A stretch of 13,303 nucleotides of DNA from Bacteroidota bacterium (GTDB lineage Bacteria; Bacteroidota; Bacteroidia; Chitinophagales; LD1). The notes beneath the pieces were generated by a model, which saw nothing but the letters and a program-made list of their open reading frames with translations, searched no databases and had not been told where the DNA came from. This document shows, in pieces, positions 2,845-9,665 of this stretch. Within the stretch, counting starts at the first letter, position 1. Each line of letters opens with the position of its first letter. The position numbers and the translations under genes were made by a program. The stretch is taken from positions 1 through 13,303 of the forward strand of contig JAEYZB010000033.1 of NCBI GenBank assembly GCA_023428205.1, read 5' to 3'.

Positions 2845-4944
2845 TTAATGTTCTAATCGATAAATCTTTTCGGCATGTTTATACACCCATTCTTTACTCA
2901 AACTTTCTTCTTTTGTTTGATGATTTACATATAAATGCATTTGGTCGGTATAGTGTTTTGAGCCTTCTTTGTTGCTTGAGCCATAAGGCGAAACGGTTCT
3001 TATGATTGGTCCGTCTTTTGTGAATTTAGCGAGTAAAATAAAGGTTTCTCCTAACCAAGTTTTTCGTTGGCCTTTGCCGTGAGGATTGCCATATTTCGCA
3101 TTCCACATATCGGGTCCGCCATTAGTCGGCAAATCAACGTCTCCGCGAATGTGACGCTGGTAATCGCCTAAAGGGATATTCAGTTTGCCGTGATGTTCCA
3201 AGAAAAACTTTTTTACTTCTTGGATGGTTGTTATGTACATTTCTGTTTTGAGTTTTAAATCATTGCGGTATTTCGCTTCCATCTCTCCGCCCGATTTGTC
3301 GTACATGCGGTACATCACTTCATATACAAATGCAGCATTGGTGTCAACAACGGCTCCTTCTTTGTTCCATTGTTGCATGGTGCGAATAGCATCAGCAATA
3401 TCAGGGTATGTTTCCGGCTTTAAGCTGTATAAATCGCTAATGTCAAAATTGCGAAGGAAAACGACTTTTTCGGGAAGGCGACTATCATATTTTATTTTCA
3501 GAAAATCGTCCCACGTCACTTTGTCGTATTGGGAGATATTTTCATAGAATCTTCTGCTTCGGATGTTTTCCAACGTGTCGTAACCAATATTCAAATTGAC
3601 TTCTCCCACTTTCGGGTTTTCTTCCGGAGCCGTGATTTGATACGAAGTTTGATTCGTATTAAACACATAACCACTCTTTGGATTCAGCCTTTGCAATAAC
3701 GAATCTTGAGGAAAAAATTCTGTCCACAAGGTTTTTTCTGTATTTCCGGGAACGGTGCCCTTCCAGTCGTATCCTTCCGCGCGTTTCGGCATTGTTCCGT
3801 TGCTGATTATGAAAATGGTATCATACTTGTCTCCATAAATAATGTTTTGATTAATGATTCCCTGCATATCCAATGCTTTTCGGAACTCCGTATAATTTTT
3901 AGCTTTGTTCATTCTAAACCATTGTTCAGGGGCTTTAACGGTCATATTAGATGCGAGTCGCATCGCAAAAATTCCTTTTTTGTTTACAATAGTTGCTCCG
4001 TATTTACTCCACCAAATTTTCTTTTTCAGTTTCAGGATAAATTTGTGTTTTTCGGGGTGCTTTGCAAGATTCACCGCCAACTTTGCTTTGCCTTTTTCCA
4101 GCGGATAGGAAACGCCATCTACTAAATAATTCCCTTTTTTCTTCGGGTCTGCCTGCAATTGAAAAATGTCAATTGCGTCAAATCCGTTTATGGTATGCGC
4201 CCAGCCTAGATTTTCATTCACTCCGTGGAAAATGGTAACGCCACCGTGAAAGGTTGACCCCAACATATTCCAACCTTCCTCGCTTTGTACATGCGCTTCG
4301 TACCATGATAACGGACCTTCAAGCGGTTGATGAGAATTTACATCAAGAAAAACATTTCCGTCTGCTGTCTTGTTAGCGTTCATCGCCAATCCGTTTGAGC
4401 CACGACCCGTTTCAGCAAAAGGGACTTCCGGTGCGGTGCCGGAAACTAAGGAATTCAATGCTCCATCAACTCCGGTCATTAGCGCCATTGCCAGCATATA
4501 GCCACTTAAAAAATCTTGCGGTTTGACAGGAAACGCTTGTTTTACTAATACCTCTTCCGGATGTTTTTCTGCATATAAATTTCCTGCTGCAGCACCGGCT
4601 TCCAATATTTTTTTAAATTCCGGTGAAACATCTTTTTCGTAGCGCTCATTTATGGTTTGCTGCACCCGGAGCAGTTGCACTGCATAATCAATTTTTGCGC
4701 CATCAGGCCCGATATTGCGACCTAACATTCCTCGCGCAATAAGAAGAACAAACTGTAATGTTTTGAAGTCATCTTCGCACTCGGCCCATACCAAACCATA
4801 AGCACAGTCGGCATCTGTTTTCCCGAAAATGTGTGGAACCCCAAAGCTGTCGCGCACGATTTCCACACTATATTTGGGCGTTTTTTGCGAAAAAGAAAAG
4901 CTGGAAATCAGTATCAAGAAAGAAAGAAAGAATCCTTTAAGCAT
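2845..4944 (-). CDS. Exported penicillin acylase family protein (Ntn-hydrolase amidase)
   Basis: 699 residues. A Sec signal peptide (residues 1-19, MLKGFFLSFLILISS then FSFSQ) precedes a precursor of the penicillin G acylase / acyl-homoserine-lactone acylase superfamily, which is cut into alpha and beta subunits by autocatalysis. The alpha-chain motif RDSFGVPHIFG (31-41) and ECEDDF are present. The beta chain should start at S183 in TGRGSNGLAMN, the N-terminal nucleophile. H205 falls exactly 22 residues later, matching the beta-23 histidine described for PvdQ-type acylases, and the FNTNQ segment (428-432) supplies the family's active-site Asn. The product is periplasmic or outer-surface and hydrolyses an amide. 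The substrate (beta-lactam, N-acyl-homoserine lactone, lipopeptide or other) cannot be told from sequence. The Lrp-type regulator gene lies 92 bases upstream on the same strand. No clear TAnnTTTG element precedes this gene. Confidence 0.92.
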   Translation of the reverse strand: MLKGFFLSFLILISSFSFSQKTPKYSVEIVRDSFGVPHIFGKTDADCAYGLVWAECEDDFKTLQFVLLIARGMLGRNIGPDGAKIDYAVQLLRVQQTINERYEKDVSPEFKKILEAGAAAGNLYAEKHPEEVLVKQAFPVKPQDFLSGYMLAMALMTGVDGALNSLVSGTAPEVPFAETGRGSNGLAMNANKTADGNVFLDVNSHQPLEGPLSWYEAHVQSEEGWNMLGSTFHGGVTIFHGVNENLGWAHTINGFDAIDIFQLQADPKKKGNYLVDGVSYPLEKGKAKLAVNLAKHPEKHKFILKLKKKIWWSKYGATIVNKKGIFAMRLASNMTVKAPEQWFRMNKAKNYTEFRKALDMQGIINQNIIYGDKYDTIFIISNGTMPKRAEGYDWKGTVPGNTEKTLWTEFFPQDSLLQRLNPKSGYVFNTNQTSYQITAPEENPKVGEVNLNIGYDTLENIRSRRFYENISQYDKVTWDDFLKIKYDSRLPEKVVFLRNFDISDLYSLKPETYPDIADAIRTMQQWNKEGAVVDTNAAFVYEVMYRMYDKSGGEMEAKYRNDLKLKTEMYITTIQEVKKFFLEHHGKLNIPLGDYQRHIRGDVDLPTNGGPDMWNAKYGNPHGKGQRKTWLGETFILLAKFTKDGPIIRTVSPYGSSNKEGSKHYTDQMHLYVNHQTKEESLSKEWVYKHAEKIYRLEH

Positions 4945-5003: not shown

Positions 5004-5038
5004 AATTAACGTGCATTTTTTGCCGTTCAACGTTAATT
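5004..5038. repeat. 9-base inverted repeat overlapping the 3' end of the Lrp gene
   Basis: The arms at 5004-5012 and 5030-5038 are perfect reverse complements and surround a 17-base spacer. The right arm overlaps the stop codon of the Lrp-type gene. Read on the minus strand, a T-rich stretch follows about ten bases after the hairpin. It may be a weak terminator, or a protein-binding palindrome between regulator and acylase. The arms are AT-rich and the evidence is structural only. Confidence 0.3.
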
Positions 5039-5510
5039 ATTCACGTAGTGAAAGCGCAATCGGACGCTCAAAACTTTCTTCCAATGAGATGAGTGTTTCG
5101 GTCCGATTAATGCCATTTATTTTTTGCAACTTATCATGTAGTACCCTGCGCAAATGGTCGGTATCGGAACAAATGATTTTTAAAAACAAACTGTAATTTC
5201 CTGTCGTGTAATGACACGAAACCACTTCGTTTATTTTTTTCAACTCTTTCACTACACTGTCATATTGATCGGACTTATTGAGGTACACCCCGATAAAAGC
5301 AATCACATCTAAGCCTAATTTTTTTGTGTTCAGTTGAATTTGTGGTGGACGCGTGATGCCGAGTTTTTCCATTTTCTTCATGCGCACATGAACTGTTCCC
5401 GATGATACGTACAATTTTTCGCCAATTTCAGTATAAGGAGTGTTGGCGTCTTTGAGCAACACGTTTAAAATGCCTAAGTCGGTATTATCAATTTCGTAAT
5501 TGAGTGCCAT
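5037..5510 (-). CDS. Lrp/AsnC family transcriptional regulator
   Basis: 157 residues from the ATG at 5510, a normal Lrp length. Upstream in-frame codons would add 13 residues, but the family normally begins at the IDNTDLGIL segment and a TAATTTTG promoter element overlaps the extension, so the internal ATG is preferred. An N-terminal winged helix-turn-helix (about residues 7-55, with TEIGEKLYVSSGTVHVRMKKM as recognition region, written across 22-42) is followed by the RAM/AsnC effector domain (about 68-150). That domain contains HYTTGNYSLFLKI and GINRTETLISLEES, typical of Bacteroidota Lrp homologues. Members bind DNA as octamers or dimers and sense amino acids or related small molecules; the ligand here is unknown. 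It may regulate itself or the neighbouring acylase, which is inference from position. Confidence 0.93.
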   Translation of the reverse strand: MALNYEIDNTDLGILNVLLKDANTPYTEIGEKLYVSSGTVHVRMKKMEKLGITRPPQIQLNTKKLGLDVIAFIGVYLNKSDQYDSVVKELKKINEVVSCHYTTGNYSLFLKIICSDTDHLRRVLHDKLQKINGINRTETLISLEESFERPIALSLRE

Positions 5511-5618: not shown

Positions 5619-5626
5619 TATCTTTG
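5619..5626 (+). promoter_or_regulatory. -7 element of the tRNA-like RNA promoter (TATCTTTG)
   Basis: Perfect match to TAnnTTTG on the + strand. A start site 5-8 bases downstream would fall at about 5631-5634, only a few bases before the predicted acceptor stem at 5636. The precursor would thus have an almost absent 5' leader. The -33 region is a T-run (5592-5597) rather than a full TTTG. The Lrp-type gene is transcribed divergently. Confidence 0.65.
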
Positions 5627-5635
5627 CGTCAAAAT

Positions 5636-5744
5636 TGTTGGGTGATGGAATAGGTAGTAATATCCGCTCCATTCTCAGGACGGGAAAGCAAACATAAGTT
5701 TTGAAACATACTTTCCTATGCAGGTTCGACTCCTGCTCCAACAG
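5636..5744 (+). tRNA. tRNA-like RNA, class II (Leu-type D loop), anticodon not assignable; aberrant tRNA, pseudo-tRNA or novel tRNA-like ncRNA
   Basis: Three tRNA hallmarks are clear. A 7-bp acceptor stem joins 5636-5642 (TGTTGGG) to 5737-5743 (TCCAACA), with G at 5744 as discriminator; as often in Bacteroidota, CCA is not encoded. A perfect T arm has stem GCAGG/CCTGC (5720-5724 and 5732-5736) around the consensus 7-base loop TTCGACT. A D loop (GGAATAGGTAG, 5647-5657) resembles tRNA-Leu. A large variable arm has a 6-bp stem GGAAAG (5683-5688)/CTTTCC (5711-5716) and a 22-base loop. The anticodon arm is abnormal. The best stem, CCG-C-TCC (5664-5670) with GGACGG (5678-5683), needs a bulged C, and its loop ATTCTCA would read UCU with C at position 37. 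A Leu(CAG)-type loop CTCAGGA (5674-5680) is also present but lacks a stem. At about 109 nt it is longer than a normal tRNA. A perfect -7 element just upstream argues that it is transcribed. Confidence 0.55.
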
Positions 5745-5778
5745 CACTAAAGATGGTTTGGTTTTGGTTTCGTGAAAC

Positions 5779-5873
5779 GGTTGAGTGAAAGCTCAACCTT
5801 TCGCGTTTTTAAGCGAAAGGGGCGATGCTTCGGCAAGCTCAGCAACCAAAAACGAGCAAGAATTTGCTCGTTT
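5779..5873. repeat. Cluster of three strong hairpins after the tRNA-like RNA; REP-like intergenic element
   Basis: Three adjacent perfect inverted repeats are present. The first is GGTTGAG/CTCAACC (5779-5785, 5792-5798). The second is CCTTTCGC/GCGAAAGG (5797-5804, 5813-5820) with a T-rich loop. The third is a 10-bp stem (5850-5859, 5864-5873) with loop GAAT. Between the second and third lies GCTTCGGCAAGCTCAGC (5827-5843), similar to short palindromic segments I recall as dispersed in many Bacteroidota genomes. GGTTGAG could alternatively pair with that segment. The cluster probably ends transcription from the upstream RNA gene, although no hairpin is followed by a long T-run on the + strand. 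Confidence 0.5.
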
Positions 5874-5942: not shown

Positions 5943-7016
5943 ATGGAAAATAATTACATCAAAAGTCGCGGTGCTCAGGTAAATCCAACCAACCGCTTCA
6001 TTAAAAAAGAAGTGCAGAAATATTATGATGATCTGCCAACACACGATGAGCGGGAAGATCTCGCATTGCACAATGCGAAAACGAAGTTCATCGAAGTTTT
6101 CCCGAAAACGATTTTAAATAAAGTTACGAGTCCTGACATCGGTCCGGCTTGGAGTATGAATCCGTATCAGGGTTGCGAACACGGCTGCACGTATTGCTAT
6201 GCGAGAAACTCTCATGAATATTGGGATTACAGCGCAGGAATGGATTTTGAACAAAACATTTTGGTGAAAAAATCTGCTCCAAAATTGCTCCGCGAAGCAT
6301 TGAAAAATCAGAAGTGGAAAGCCGATGCTATCATGCTCGCAGGAAATACGGATTGCTATCAACCTGCGGAGCGAAAATTTGGAATCACTCGCGAACTGCT
6401 CGAAGTGTTTTGGGAATTTCGCCATCCTGTGGGTGTGATAACAAAGAACAGTTTAATAGAGAGAGACGTTGATATTCTGCAGAAACTCGCTTCCGAAAAT
6501 TTGGTGCGCGTAACACTAAGTCTGACGACCTTAGACGAAGATGTGAAACGTATTTTAGAACCGCGCACTTCGTCCGTTCGTCATGTACTACGAACAATAA
6601 AAGAATTAAGTAACGCAGGAATTGGCGTGAACGTAAATATGGCTCCAATCATTCCCGCCATCAACGACCACGAAATTTTTGAGTTAGTCAGAACCGTCTC
6701 AGAAGCAGGAGCAAGTTCGGTGAACTACACCATTGTTCGTTTGAACGGACAGCTCGCGCAAATTTTTGAAGATTGGATTATGAAAAATATGCCCGATAGA
6801 GCTAATAAGGTGTTGAACAGAATTCGTGCAATGCATGGAGGCAAACTAAACGATTCGCAATATGGAAGACGGATGGGGGGCGAAGGCGAATGGGCGGAAC
6901 TTATCAAAAGACAATTTGCCATGGCGCGATTAAAATTTTTGCAAGGGAAAAGTTTGCCAAAACTGAATTACGATTTGTACGAACAGTACCGAGGCGGACA
7001 AATGAAGTTGTTTTAA
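5943..7016 (+). CDS. PA0069-family radical SAM protein (spore photoproduct lyase-like)
   Basis: 357 residues from ATG 5943. The open frame reaches back to 5772, but that extension runs through the hairpin cluster and has no family resemblance, so it was rejected. The [4Fe-4S]/SAM cysteine motif CX3CX2C is in YQGCEHGCTYCYARNSH (C78, C82, C85). It is followed by AGNTDCYQPAERKFGITR (about 137-154) and ITKNSLIERD, then PRTSSVRHVLRTI and NVNMAPIIPAIND. This is the arrangement of the COG1533/SplB-related PA0069 group. These proteins bind an iron-sulfur cluster and cleave SAM reductively. The true substrate of the PA0069 group is not established to my knowledge, and a DNA lesion repair role is only suggested by similarity to spore photoproduct lyase. 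The stop lies one base from the stop of the convergent ABC-F gene. Confidence 0.93.
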   Translation: MENNYIKSRGAQVNPTNRFIKKEVQKYYDDLPTHDEREDLALHNAKTKFIEVFPKTILNKVTSPDIGPAWSMNPYQGCEHGCTYCYARNSHEYWDYSAGMDFEQNILVKKSAPKLLREALKNQKWKADAIMLAGNTDCYQPAERKFGITRELLEVFWEFRHPVGVITKNSLIERDVDILQKLASENLVRVTLSLTTLDEDVKRILEPRTSSVRHVLRTIKELSNAGIGVNVNMAPIIPAINDHEIFELVRTVSEAGASSVNYTIVRLNGQLAQIFEDWIMKNMPDRANKVLNRIRAMHGGKLNDSQYGRRMGGEGEWAELIKRQFAMARLKFLQGKSLPKLNYDLYEQYRGGQMKLF

Positions 7017-9011: not shown

Positions 9012-9665
9012 TTAGAAACGAATTATGTTGTCCACGATATAGATAATTCCGTTCTCATCTTTCAAAACATTTCGCGGGTATAAGTCGGAAACGATGTATT
9101 CATCACGTCTAAACGTATATTCATTTATTTTCTCAAAACCAATAGCGAGCATAAAGTCCGCGATTTCTTGTTCCGTTGCGGGCATTGCGTTCGGTACATA
9201 ATCTTGTTTCAGAATTACTTCAACGTAAGGGGTTCGTTTTGAGCCATTATCAAAACCTGTAAAGCCGATTAACTCATATTTCGTTTCGGGAAACAAAAGG
9301 TTGTGCGCTTTTACTTGCTTAAGCAGGGTAGAAACAAGAAAATTAGTGTTGAATAAATTGTTGCTTTTGTAGAGTGCGCCTGTTTCAGCATTGATAGCAA
9401 GTGTGTTTTCGTTGCCTCCGCCTTTCATCGGAACGCCAAGCGTGTATAGGTCTTCTATCCAAAGATTATTAGCTTTCGCAAAGTCAAAAACTATGCGCTT
9501 TTCAAGGTCGGCTTTTGCGTGTCTGTCGAGTTGCGCAAGATTTCCTCTTGTACTTTTTTCAAGTTCAACGGCAATTTCCGCTCGGATAACGCTTTCATCG
9601 CGCGTTCCCAATTTTTTCGGTGTGCTTCGTTTAGAATCTGCATTGTTGTCGTTTTTCACAGCCAA
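9012..9665 (-). CDS. Protein kinase-like domain protein, C-terminally short (resembles kinase domain of polyvalent proteins)
   Basis: At most 217 residues. The lysine/serine-rich N-terminus (1-20) is followed by a predicted helical stretch (26-70) and a kinase-like region with a Gly-rich segment KGGGNENTL (81-89) and a possible beta-3 lysine (K100). The catalytic segment at 194-212 reads DLYPRN then VLKDENG then YIVD. D194, N199 and D212 have exactly the spacing of the catalytic Asp, the Asn and the DFG Asp of eukaryotic-type kinases. The protein stops five residues after D212, so the C-lobe is absent. It resembles kinase-like domains I recall from large 'polyvalent' proteins of phages and conjugative elements in Bacteroidota; this needs a profile search. 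There is no in-frame ATG before residue 80. The start is TTG 9665, GTG 9659 or an internal TTG near 9611, so the 5' end is uncertain. It lies between engB and ABC-F. Confidence 0.75.
   Translation of the reverse strand: MAVKNDNNADSKRSTPKKLGTRDESVIRAEIAVELEKSTRGNLAQLDRHAKADLEKRIVFDFAKANNLWIEDLYTLGVPMKGGGNENTLAINAETGALYKSNNLFNTNFLVSTLLKQVKAHNLLFPETKYELIGFTGFDNGSKRTPYVEVILKQDYVPNAMPATEQEIADFMLAIGFEKINEYTFRRDEYIVSDLYPRNVLKDENGIIYIVDNIIRF

Follow-up and report, generated by a model that had tools for sequence, protein, structure and literature searches.

The stretch of DNA analysed here, 13,303 nt from a member of the Bacteroidota and referred to below as the window, contains on its forward strand a tRNA-like RNA gene of 109 nt, which runs from U1 to G73 at positions 5636-5744 with C74 encoded at 5745, and which was delimited using a covariance model of its relatives (R1, see below) and alignment to them. 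The element TATCTTTG, which we take to be a promoter element of the Bacteroidota -7 type, can be read on the same strand at 5619-5626, 9 bases before U1. Divergent from the RNA, on the reverse strand at 5037-5510, lies the gene for an AsnC-type regulator of the Lrp family, the conserved partner of the RNA, which falls outside the feature (5619-5746) singled out by an earlier note made from the sequence of the window. Downstream are a weak terminator-like hairpin (5785-5804, forward strand), detected by a loose scan but not by a stricter one, and a radical SAM gene of the PA0069 family which begins at 5943. Elsewhere in the window, a protein with a Kinase-PolyVal domain (PF18762) is encoded at 9012-9665 on the reverse strand, and the gene beside it codes for a 50S ribosome-binding-type GTPase.

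The acceptor stem of the RNA is formed by TGTTGGG (5636-5642) and TCCAACA (5737-5743), which make 7 bp including U1-A72, and its 3' strand is followed by the discriminator G73 at 5744. The D arm (5645-5663) has a D loop of the Leu type, and its stem lacks the third pair, 12-23, present in the nearest relatives (L018 and L019), so that the arm is not fully intact. The anticodon arm (5664-5683) is remodelled: it can be paired only with a bulged C (CCG-c-TCC / GGA-CGG), which gives 6 bp closing a loop AUUCUCA at 5671-5677, while the sequence CUCAGGA is present without a stem. The variable arm (5683-5716), which in this pairing has its first base in common with the anticodon arm, consists of a 6-bp stem GGAAAG/CTTTCC and a 22-nt loop containing two copies of AAACATA, and the T arm (GCAGG-TTCGACT-CCTGC) occupies 5720-5736. 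The earlier note had described the bulged arm, both loop sequences, the repeated AAACATA and the unusual length, all of which are seen. Its view that the acceptor stem with U1-A72, G73, the T arm and the Leu-like D loop are intact is borne out, save that the D arm has lost one stem pair; its remark that U1-A72 combined with G73 is unlike tRNA-Leu and resembles tRNA-Asn and tRNA-Gln also stands.

ARAGORN, which the earlier note had recommended as a check, calls neither a tRNA nor a tmRNA in the window, and a search of the window against Rfam yields no family at the RNA up to E=10, the tRNA model RF00005 included. The single-sequence folding energy of the RNA is ordinary (z of -1.2, with 28 of 200 shuffles folding as well), and the case that it is more than a chance match therefore rests on comparison. 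The model R1, derived from relatives, scores it at 58.8 bits (E of 6e-15 in the window), and the arrangement of RNA and AsnC-type gene seen here recurs elsewhere. These results uphold the earlier claim that the match is not accidental, and they confirm the gene as a real feature encoding a tRNA-derived RNA which has a promoter element of its own and whose aminoacyl end has been selectively kept.

A family of tRNA-like RNAs

The route to homologues led from the radical SAM neighbour to three Bacteroidetes MAGs. Two of these, UBA1941 and SZAS-56, carry 167-nt homologues which share the acceptor stem of the window RNA, resemble it in the D and T arms and exceed it in the size of the variable arm, each divergent from an AsnC gene; the third, RYN_284, has no RNA scoring at least 88 bits. 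The radical SAM gene was rejected as the partner of the RNA, because no RNA lies beside it in loci L001-L003. A structure-aware scan produced 103 distinct family members, all 103 of which have the CAGC end that earned a bonus in that scan. An alignment of 30 members was made with MAFFT (A1), and the covariance model R1, whose 30 source sequences mostly recur among its own matches, gives 111 strong matches (at least 88 bits) in 84 loci, the window being the 85th source. The threshold was placed at 88 bits because R1 also matches apparent ordinary tRNA-Leu genes of 82-87 nt at up to 67 bits; when 395 genomes sampled from the phylum were searched, no match fell between 67.3 and 88.7 bits. A larger, model-fitted alignment (A2) has 116 rows, 113 of them distinct, and includes the window and four tRNA-like phage rows.

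The proposed structure is strongly supported by covariation, which the earlier note had suggested should be sought in relatives. In A1, 99.6% of the cells are paired and 18 of the 27 pairs have changed on both sides, a result equalled by none of 500 shuffles, and in slid controls the proportion of paired cells falls to 48-61%; in A2, 25 of the 27 pairs have changed on both sides. Compensatory changes occur in all six helices, namely the acceptor, D, anticodon and T stems and two helices of the variable domain. The acceptor and T stems are of 7 and 5 bp, and the variable arm forms a structured domain that varies in length. Within it GAUAAAC and GCUAA make up a conserved internal loop, and the sequence GGGUUGACCAC is found in many members. 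Members are 108-263 nt long (median 148) in a second scan of 152 distinct members, which required positions 1, 2 and 71-74 and from which those positions were accordingly not counted. Palindromic repeat-like inserts are found inside the variable domain in L005, L006 and L156, and tandem copies of the RNA are present within L084 (up to 5), L074, L076 and L066, with variable domains that differ among the copies in some of these loci.

U1-A72, G2-C71, G73, U35, C36 and C38 are invariant in the 111 strong matches. The anticodon, nearly always presented by a 5-bp stem, is GUC in 108 of them, the exceptions being two with CUC and one with UUC (L153), so the anticodon that the earlier note had called unassignable is in the family that of tRNA-Asp, and the broken arm is special to the window copy. 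Position 33 is U in 97/111 and A, C or G in the other 14, and position 37 is a pyrimidine in 107/111, G in 4 and never A.

According to R1, the RNA is present in 40 of the 395 sampled genomes, which is a lower bound because 8 first-look candidates were scored per genome under stricter filters. A count of 176/298 genomes obtained by loose blastn was dropped, since it contains partial matches, that in the genome of RYN_284 among them. On the viral side, a 22-base core has exact matches in 27 IMG/VR contigs, and a 636-kb phage record has a copy with 75.5% identity over 85% of the query; the tRNA scan of phage LR756504.1 covered 200 of its 636 kb. Some phage copies lie within tRNA arrays (L089, L105, L109). 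Of four phage-side proteins that were tested, one is a terminase large subunit; its cluster occurs in 6 phage loci. When the window RNA was compared by blastn with phages and plasmids, only short matches appeared, some of them at tRNA genes, and no family RNA was matched among 72,556 plasmids. Phage contig L109 also has, at 3170-3298 on the forward strand near a tRNA-Leu gene, a 129-nt tRNA-like sequence with an apparent insert that scores 40 bits against R1.

Rfam 15 reports no family at the RNA up to E=1 in L005 and L006, the Rfam tRNA model has no hit at the RNA places of three further genomes (G109, G668, G436), and ARAGORN and the Rfam tRNA model miss the RNA at all places checked. No account of such an RNA was found from the titles or the opening lines of the abstracts of open-licence papers in PMC. 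The RNAs constitute a well-conserved and apparently undescribed family of Bacteroidota and phages. A tmRNA was rejected because the anticodon arm covaries and because ARAGORN calls none in the window, L005 or L006. The allo-tRNAs, a kind to which the earlier note had thought the RNA might belong, and the selC-like tRNAs share with the family a long variable arm and an odd anticodon loop, and GUC is among the commoner allo-tRNA anticodons, but their acceptor and T stems are of 8/4 or 9/3 bp in the extract of PMC7609411 consulted; the 7/5 stems of the family led to this assignment being rejected.

Association with an AsnC-type regulator

The regulator encoded in the window scores 166.1 bits against the NCBIfam equivalog NF008384, whose cut-off is 227, compared with 72.0 for the next family and 59.2 for Lrp, and its best PDB match is E. 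coli AsnC (123.5 versus 70.3 bits). It is called AsnC-type here because the cut-off is not reached, although NF008384 is by far the best family.

Among 100 non-redundant loci fetched through the RNA, an AsnC-type gene lies divergently beside the RNA in 73, at a distance of 129-370 bp (median 158); in the remaining 27 no AsnC was found in the stretch examined, and no other placement was seen. This count replaces one of 74 out of 101 bacterial loci that included some fetched through AsnC. No other neighbour is conserved to this degree. The two next-largest clusters of neighbouring open reading frames, in 21 and 17 loci and with a median distance of 0, overlap the RNA genes and have the appearance of spurious antisense frames; the next real-looking neighbours after AsnC recur in 10 of 121 loci. 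None of the phage loci in the neighbourhood analysis has the AsnC cluster.

Gene order and occurrence agree. In the 395 genomes the RNA was found in 40 and AsnC (E of at most 1e-45) in 44, with both in 40 and the RNA in 0 of the 351 others (Fisher p of about 1e-50, not corrected for kinship). RNA and AsnC gene are side by side in 30 of the 40 carriers and apart in 10, so that the co-occurrence cannot be due only to hitch-hiking. In a separate set, the RNA is directly beside the best AsnC match in 22 of 24 RNA genomes, and of 12 RNA-less genomes 10 lack any AsnC match at 1e-20, the other 2 having weaker matches. In the four genomes that have AsnC alone, no RNA lies beside it even with the filters off; two of them encode divergently from AsnC a protein of 341-349 aa with no Pfam match (L218 1-1024 and L227 53-1102, both on the reverse strand). 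By AsnC identity the nearest relatives of the window are G056 (81%) and G173 (83%), in which the RNA lies beside AsnC; of ten window proteins, AsnC was the only one found in about 19.5 kb of these genomes.

Of 75 intergenic regions between AsnC and the RNA, 47 have the motif TAnnTTTG within their final 70 nt (mean 3.7 in mononucleotide shuffles), and a terminator-like hairpin follows 60 of 133 RNAs (ten mononucleotide shuffles gave 1-3). Taken together, this looks like a gene that stands alone. No convincing AsnC palindrome was found between AsnC and the RNA, the best candidate being present in 9 of the 75 regions.

Identity marks and ordinary tRNAs

The determinants read by bacterial AspRS are G73, G34, U35, C36 and C38, with G2-C71 as a minor one, and bacterial tRNA-Asp has G1-C72, which helps AspRS in E. 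coli (extract of PMC9976931). Bacterial GatCAB recognises tRNA-Asn by U1-A72 (PMC4206432, in part), and a purine at position 37 aids decoding (PMC8007984, in part). The complete set G34, U35, C36, C38 and G73 is found in 108 of the 111 strong matches, and G2-C71 in all of them, while the first pair in all 111 is not the G1-C72 of tRNA-Asp but the U1-A72 that marks a GatCAB substrate. U33 is favoured in decoding. The family keeps what AspRS reads and relaxes, at positions 33 and 37, what decoding favours. It differs from canonical tRNA-Asp (GUC), a class I tRNA of about 75 nt, in being class II, with an extra domain in the variable arm. It shares U1-A72 with tRNA-Asn and tRNA-Gln, which decode, with anticodons GUU and UUG; we know of no AsnC partner for either.

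A blastn search for canonical tRNA-Asp and tRNA-Asn in 24 genomes found 2, and tRNAs for Asp, Asn, Gln or Glu were obtained from 5 of 6 genomes looked at, those of G001-G003 (RYN_284, SZAS-56 and UBA1941) coming from unusual arrays. An ordinary tRNA-Asp was found in 4 genomes, in all four cases with G1-C72. U1-A72 occurs in the tRNA-Gln of G001-G003 and in the tRNA-Asn of G109 and G436, the tRNA-Asn of G001-G003 having G1-C72. Because the array tRNA-Asp of G001-G003 also has U37, this base need not mean that decoding has been lost, and because G1-C72 aids AspRS in E. coli, U1-A72 may carry a cost in charging. The arrays themselves (L007 in G001, L008 in G003 and L009 in G002) are dense, with 12-14 tRNA genes each that include a Leu(UAG) of about 74 nt and an Asp with the loop CTGTCTA, and in L007 and L008 there are sub-threshold matches to YrlA (Y-RNA-like) between the tRNAs.

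Proposed function and alternatives

These observations hint at a tRNA that serves asparagine metabolism instead of protein synthesis. The reading which we favour, while judging it somewhat short of an even chance, is that the RNA does not decode, is charged with Asp by AspRS, is amidated to Asn-RNA by GatCAB, and stands under the control of AsnC. The RNA combines two tRNA identities: the Asp marks fit AspRS, which would load Asp onto it, and the first pair of the Asn/Gln type would allow GatCAB to convert Asp-RNA into Asn-RNA, from which Asn would be supplied outside decoding. Such a hybrid, if transcribed and read by the ribosome, would put Asn at GAU and GAC and would thus have to be kept from decoding, a role that may be played by the large and structured variable arm together with the loss of U33 in some members and the lack of purine 37 in most. 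AsnC would control the RNA gene as E. coli AsnC controls asnA, which it activates, less so in the presence of asparagine, while repressing itself (PMC8707732, in part). In both systems an AsnC-type regulator is found; the gene beside it is an enzyme gene that makes Asn in E. coli and an RNA gene in the family. The invariant positions and the AsnC link fit this proposal of charging and amidation; to our knowledge no enzyme frees or uses the Asn from such an RNA.

The Asn-related enzymes were surveyed in the 24 RNA genomes and 12 RNA-less genomes (36 in all). AsnRS is present in all 36, and GatB in 24/24 and 8/12 respectively. AsnA (PF03590) is present in a single genome, an RNA genome (1/24; G453) which is one of the two whose RNA has a CUC anticodon, and it is absent from all 12 RNA-less genomes. 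AsnB is over its cut-off in 18/24 RNA genomes and 8/12 RNA-less ones, which led to the rejection of missing Asn synthetases as a simple correlate of the RNA; neither synthetase is over cut-off in 6 of the 24 (G253, G109, G293, G174, G097, G535). Most carriers therefore have another source of Asn, which speaks against the RNA as their only one. Several points count against a donor of Asn: genomes without the RNA lack AsnB equally often (4/12), 97/111 members retain the U33 that decoding would need, phages carry the RNA, and three members have CUC or UUC. The equal AsnB counts and the U37 of the array tRNA-Asp weaken two supports of the proposal.

The tight link to a one-component regulator, the retained AspRS determinants and the large structured extra domain could also be explained by a regulatory mimic, a sensor or decoy and not a donor, which is bound or charged by AspRS, GatCAB or both and which reports Asp/Asn levels or charging state so as to tune the AsnC regulon. 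We think this unlikely, though deserving of weight, since the RNA is preceded by a promoter element of its own and in many cases followed by a terminator-like hairpin, as befits a stand-alone gene without cis control, and since phages carry it although no phage locus analysed has the AsnC cluster. An unusually shaped but functional tRNA-Asp that reads GAU and GAC is improbable: GUC in 108/111, U33 in 97/111 and the location of some copies in phage tRNA arrays would suit it, but 14 members have A, C or G at 33, U1-A72 would expose the RNA to GatCAB, the link to AsnC is invariant, and an ordinary tRNA-Asp is present in each of the 4 genomes where one was seen. An aminoacyl donor for another product (lipid, peptide or cell wall), which AsnC would regulate on account of the drain on Asp or Asn, seems less probable again, given that within the neighbourhoods surveyed no transferase gene recurs beside the RNA; a precedent is the tRNA-Gly of S. 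aureus that serves the pentaglycine bridge, where a charged tRNA leaves translation by small changes in an ordinary tRNA and with a different amino acid (PMC8007984, in part). Diverting a tRNA from translation thus has precedents, beyond which the function proposed here would go. For the S. aureus cell-wall tRNA-Gly we know of no regulator partner.

The family offers a concrete example, open to test, of tRNA-based metabolism apart from translation, the prediction being that Asp goes on and Asn comes off. If amidation on the RNA under AsnC control is correct, the RNA gene would hold the place that the enzyme gene asnA has as AsnC target in E. coli. A wider form of the proposal, which is possible but which we hold with more doubt, is that in a branch of Bacteroidota and some phages this tRNA of hybrid identity acts as an RNA cofactor for asparagine production, with an asparagine-responsive AsnC in control and in the place of asnA; that a few lineages have changed to the Glu-type anticodons CUC and UUC, with glutamine as the expected product; and that losing U33 and having a giant variable arm evolved to guard against the misreading of Asp codons.

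The window copy

The window copy is an outlier, a divergent member of the family which has lost the Asp anticodon. Its score of 58.8 bits is below the 88-bit mark and within the range of the tRNA-Leu matches, and its assignment to the family accordingly depends not on score but on its acceptor end (U1-A72, G2-C71, G73), its leader, which is close to that of L018, and the divergent AsnC-type gene close by. It has neither an NUC anticodon in a 5-bp stem nor the GAUAAAC/GCUAA motif, and the set G34, U35, C36, C38 and G73 is incomplete. Compared with L018 and L019 it has lost G34 and D-stem pair 12-23 and gained bases in the anticodon arm, and a short hairpin replaces the variable domain.

The earlier note had offered a decaying tRNA as one explanation. 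Decay is excluded for the family as a whole; for the window copy alone it is possible, with the chances for and against it evenly balanced. The low score against at least 88 bits for other members and the loss of G34, of pair 12-23 and of the conserved motif are what decay would produce, and tandem copies are common enough in other loci that an intact copy could exist in the same genome. On the other side, the acceptor stem keeps all 7 of its pairs and the T stem all 5, G73 and the promoter element are intact, the leader is close to that of L018, the AsnC frame beside the RNA is open, and two new stems have formed: 32 of 5000 shuffles of the stretch (0.6%) reach the 6 pairs of the anticodon arm, and 83 of 2000 (4%) reach the 6 pairs of the variable arm. 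The copy may have been repurposed or may equally be decaying. The case also shows that a tRNA gene which looks like a pseudogene may be a member of a conserved family. Read in the register of the family, the loop of the window copy is CAUUCUC, although its stem is then left unpaired, and the resulting UUC recalls the UUC member L153.
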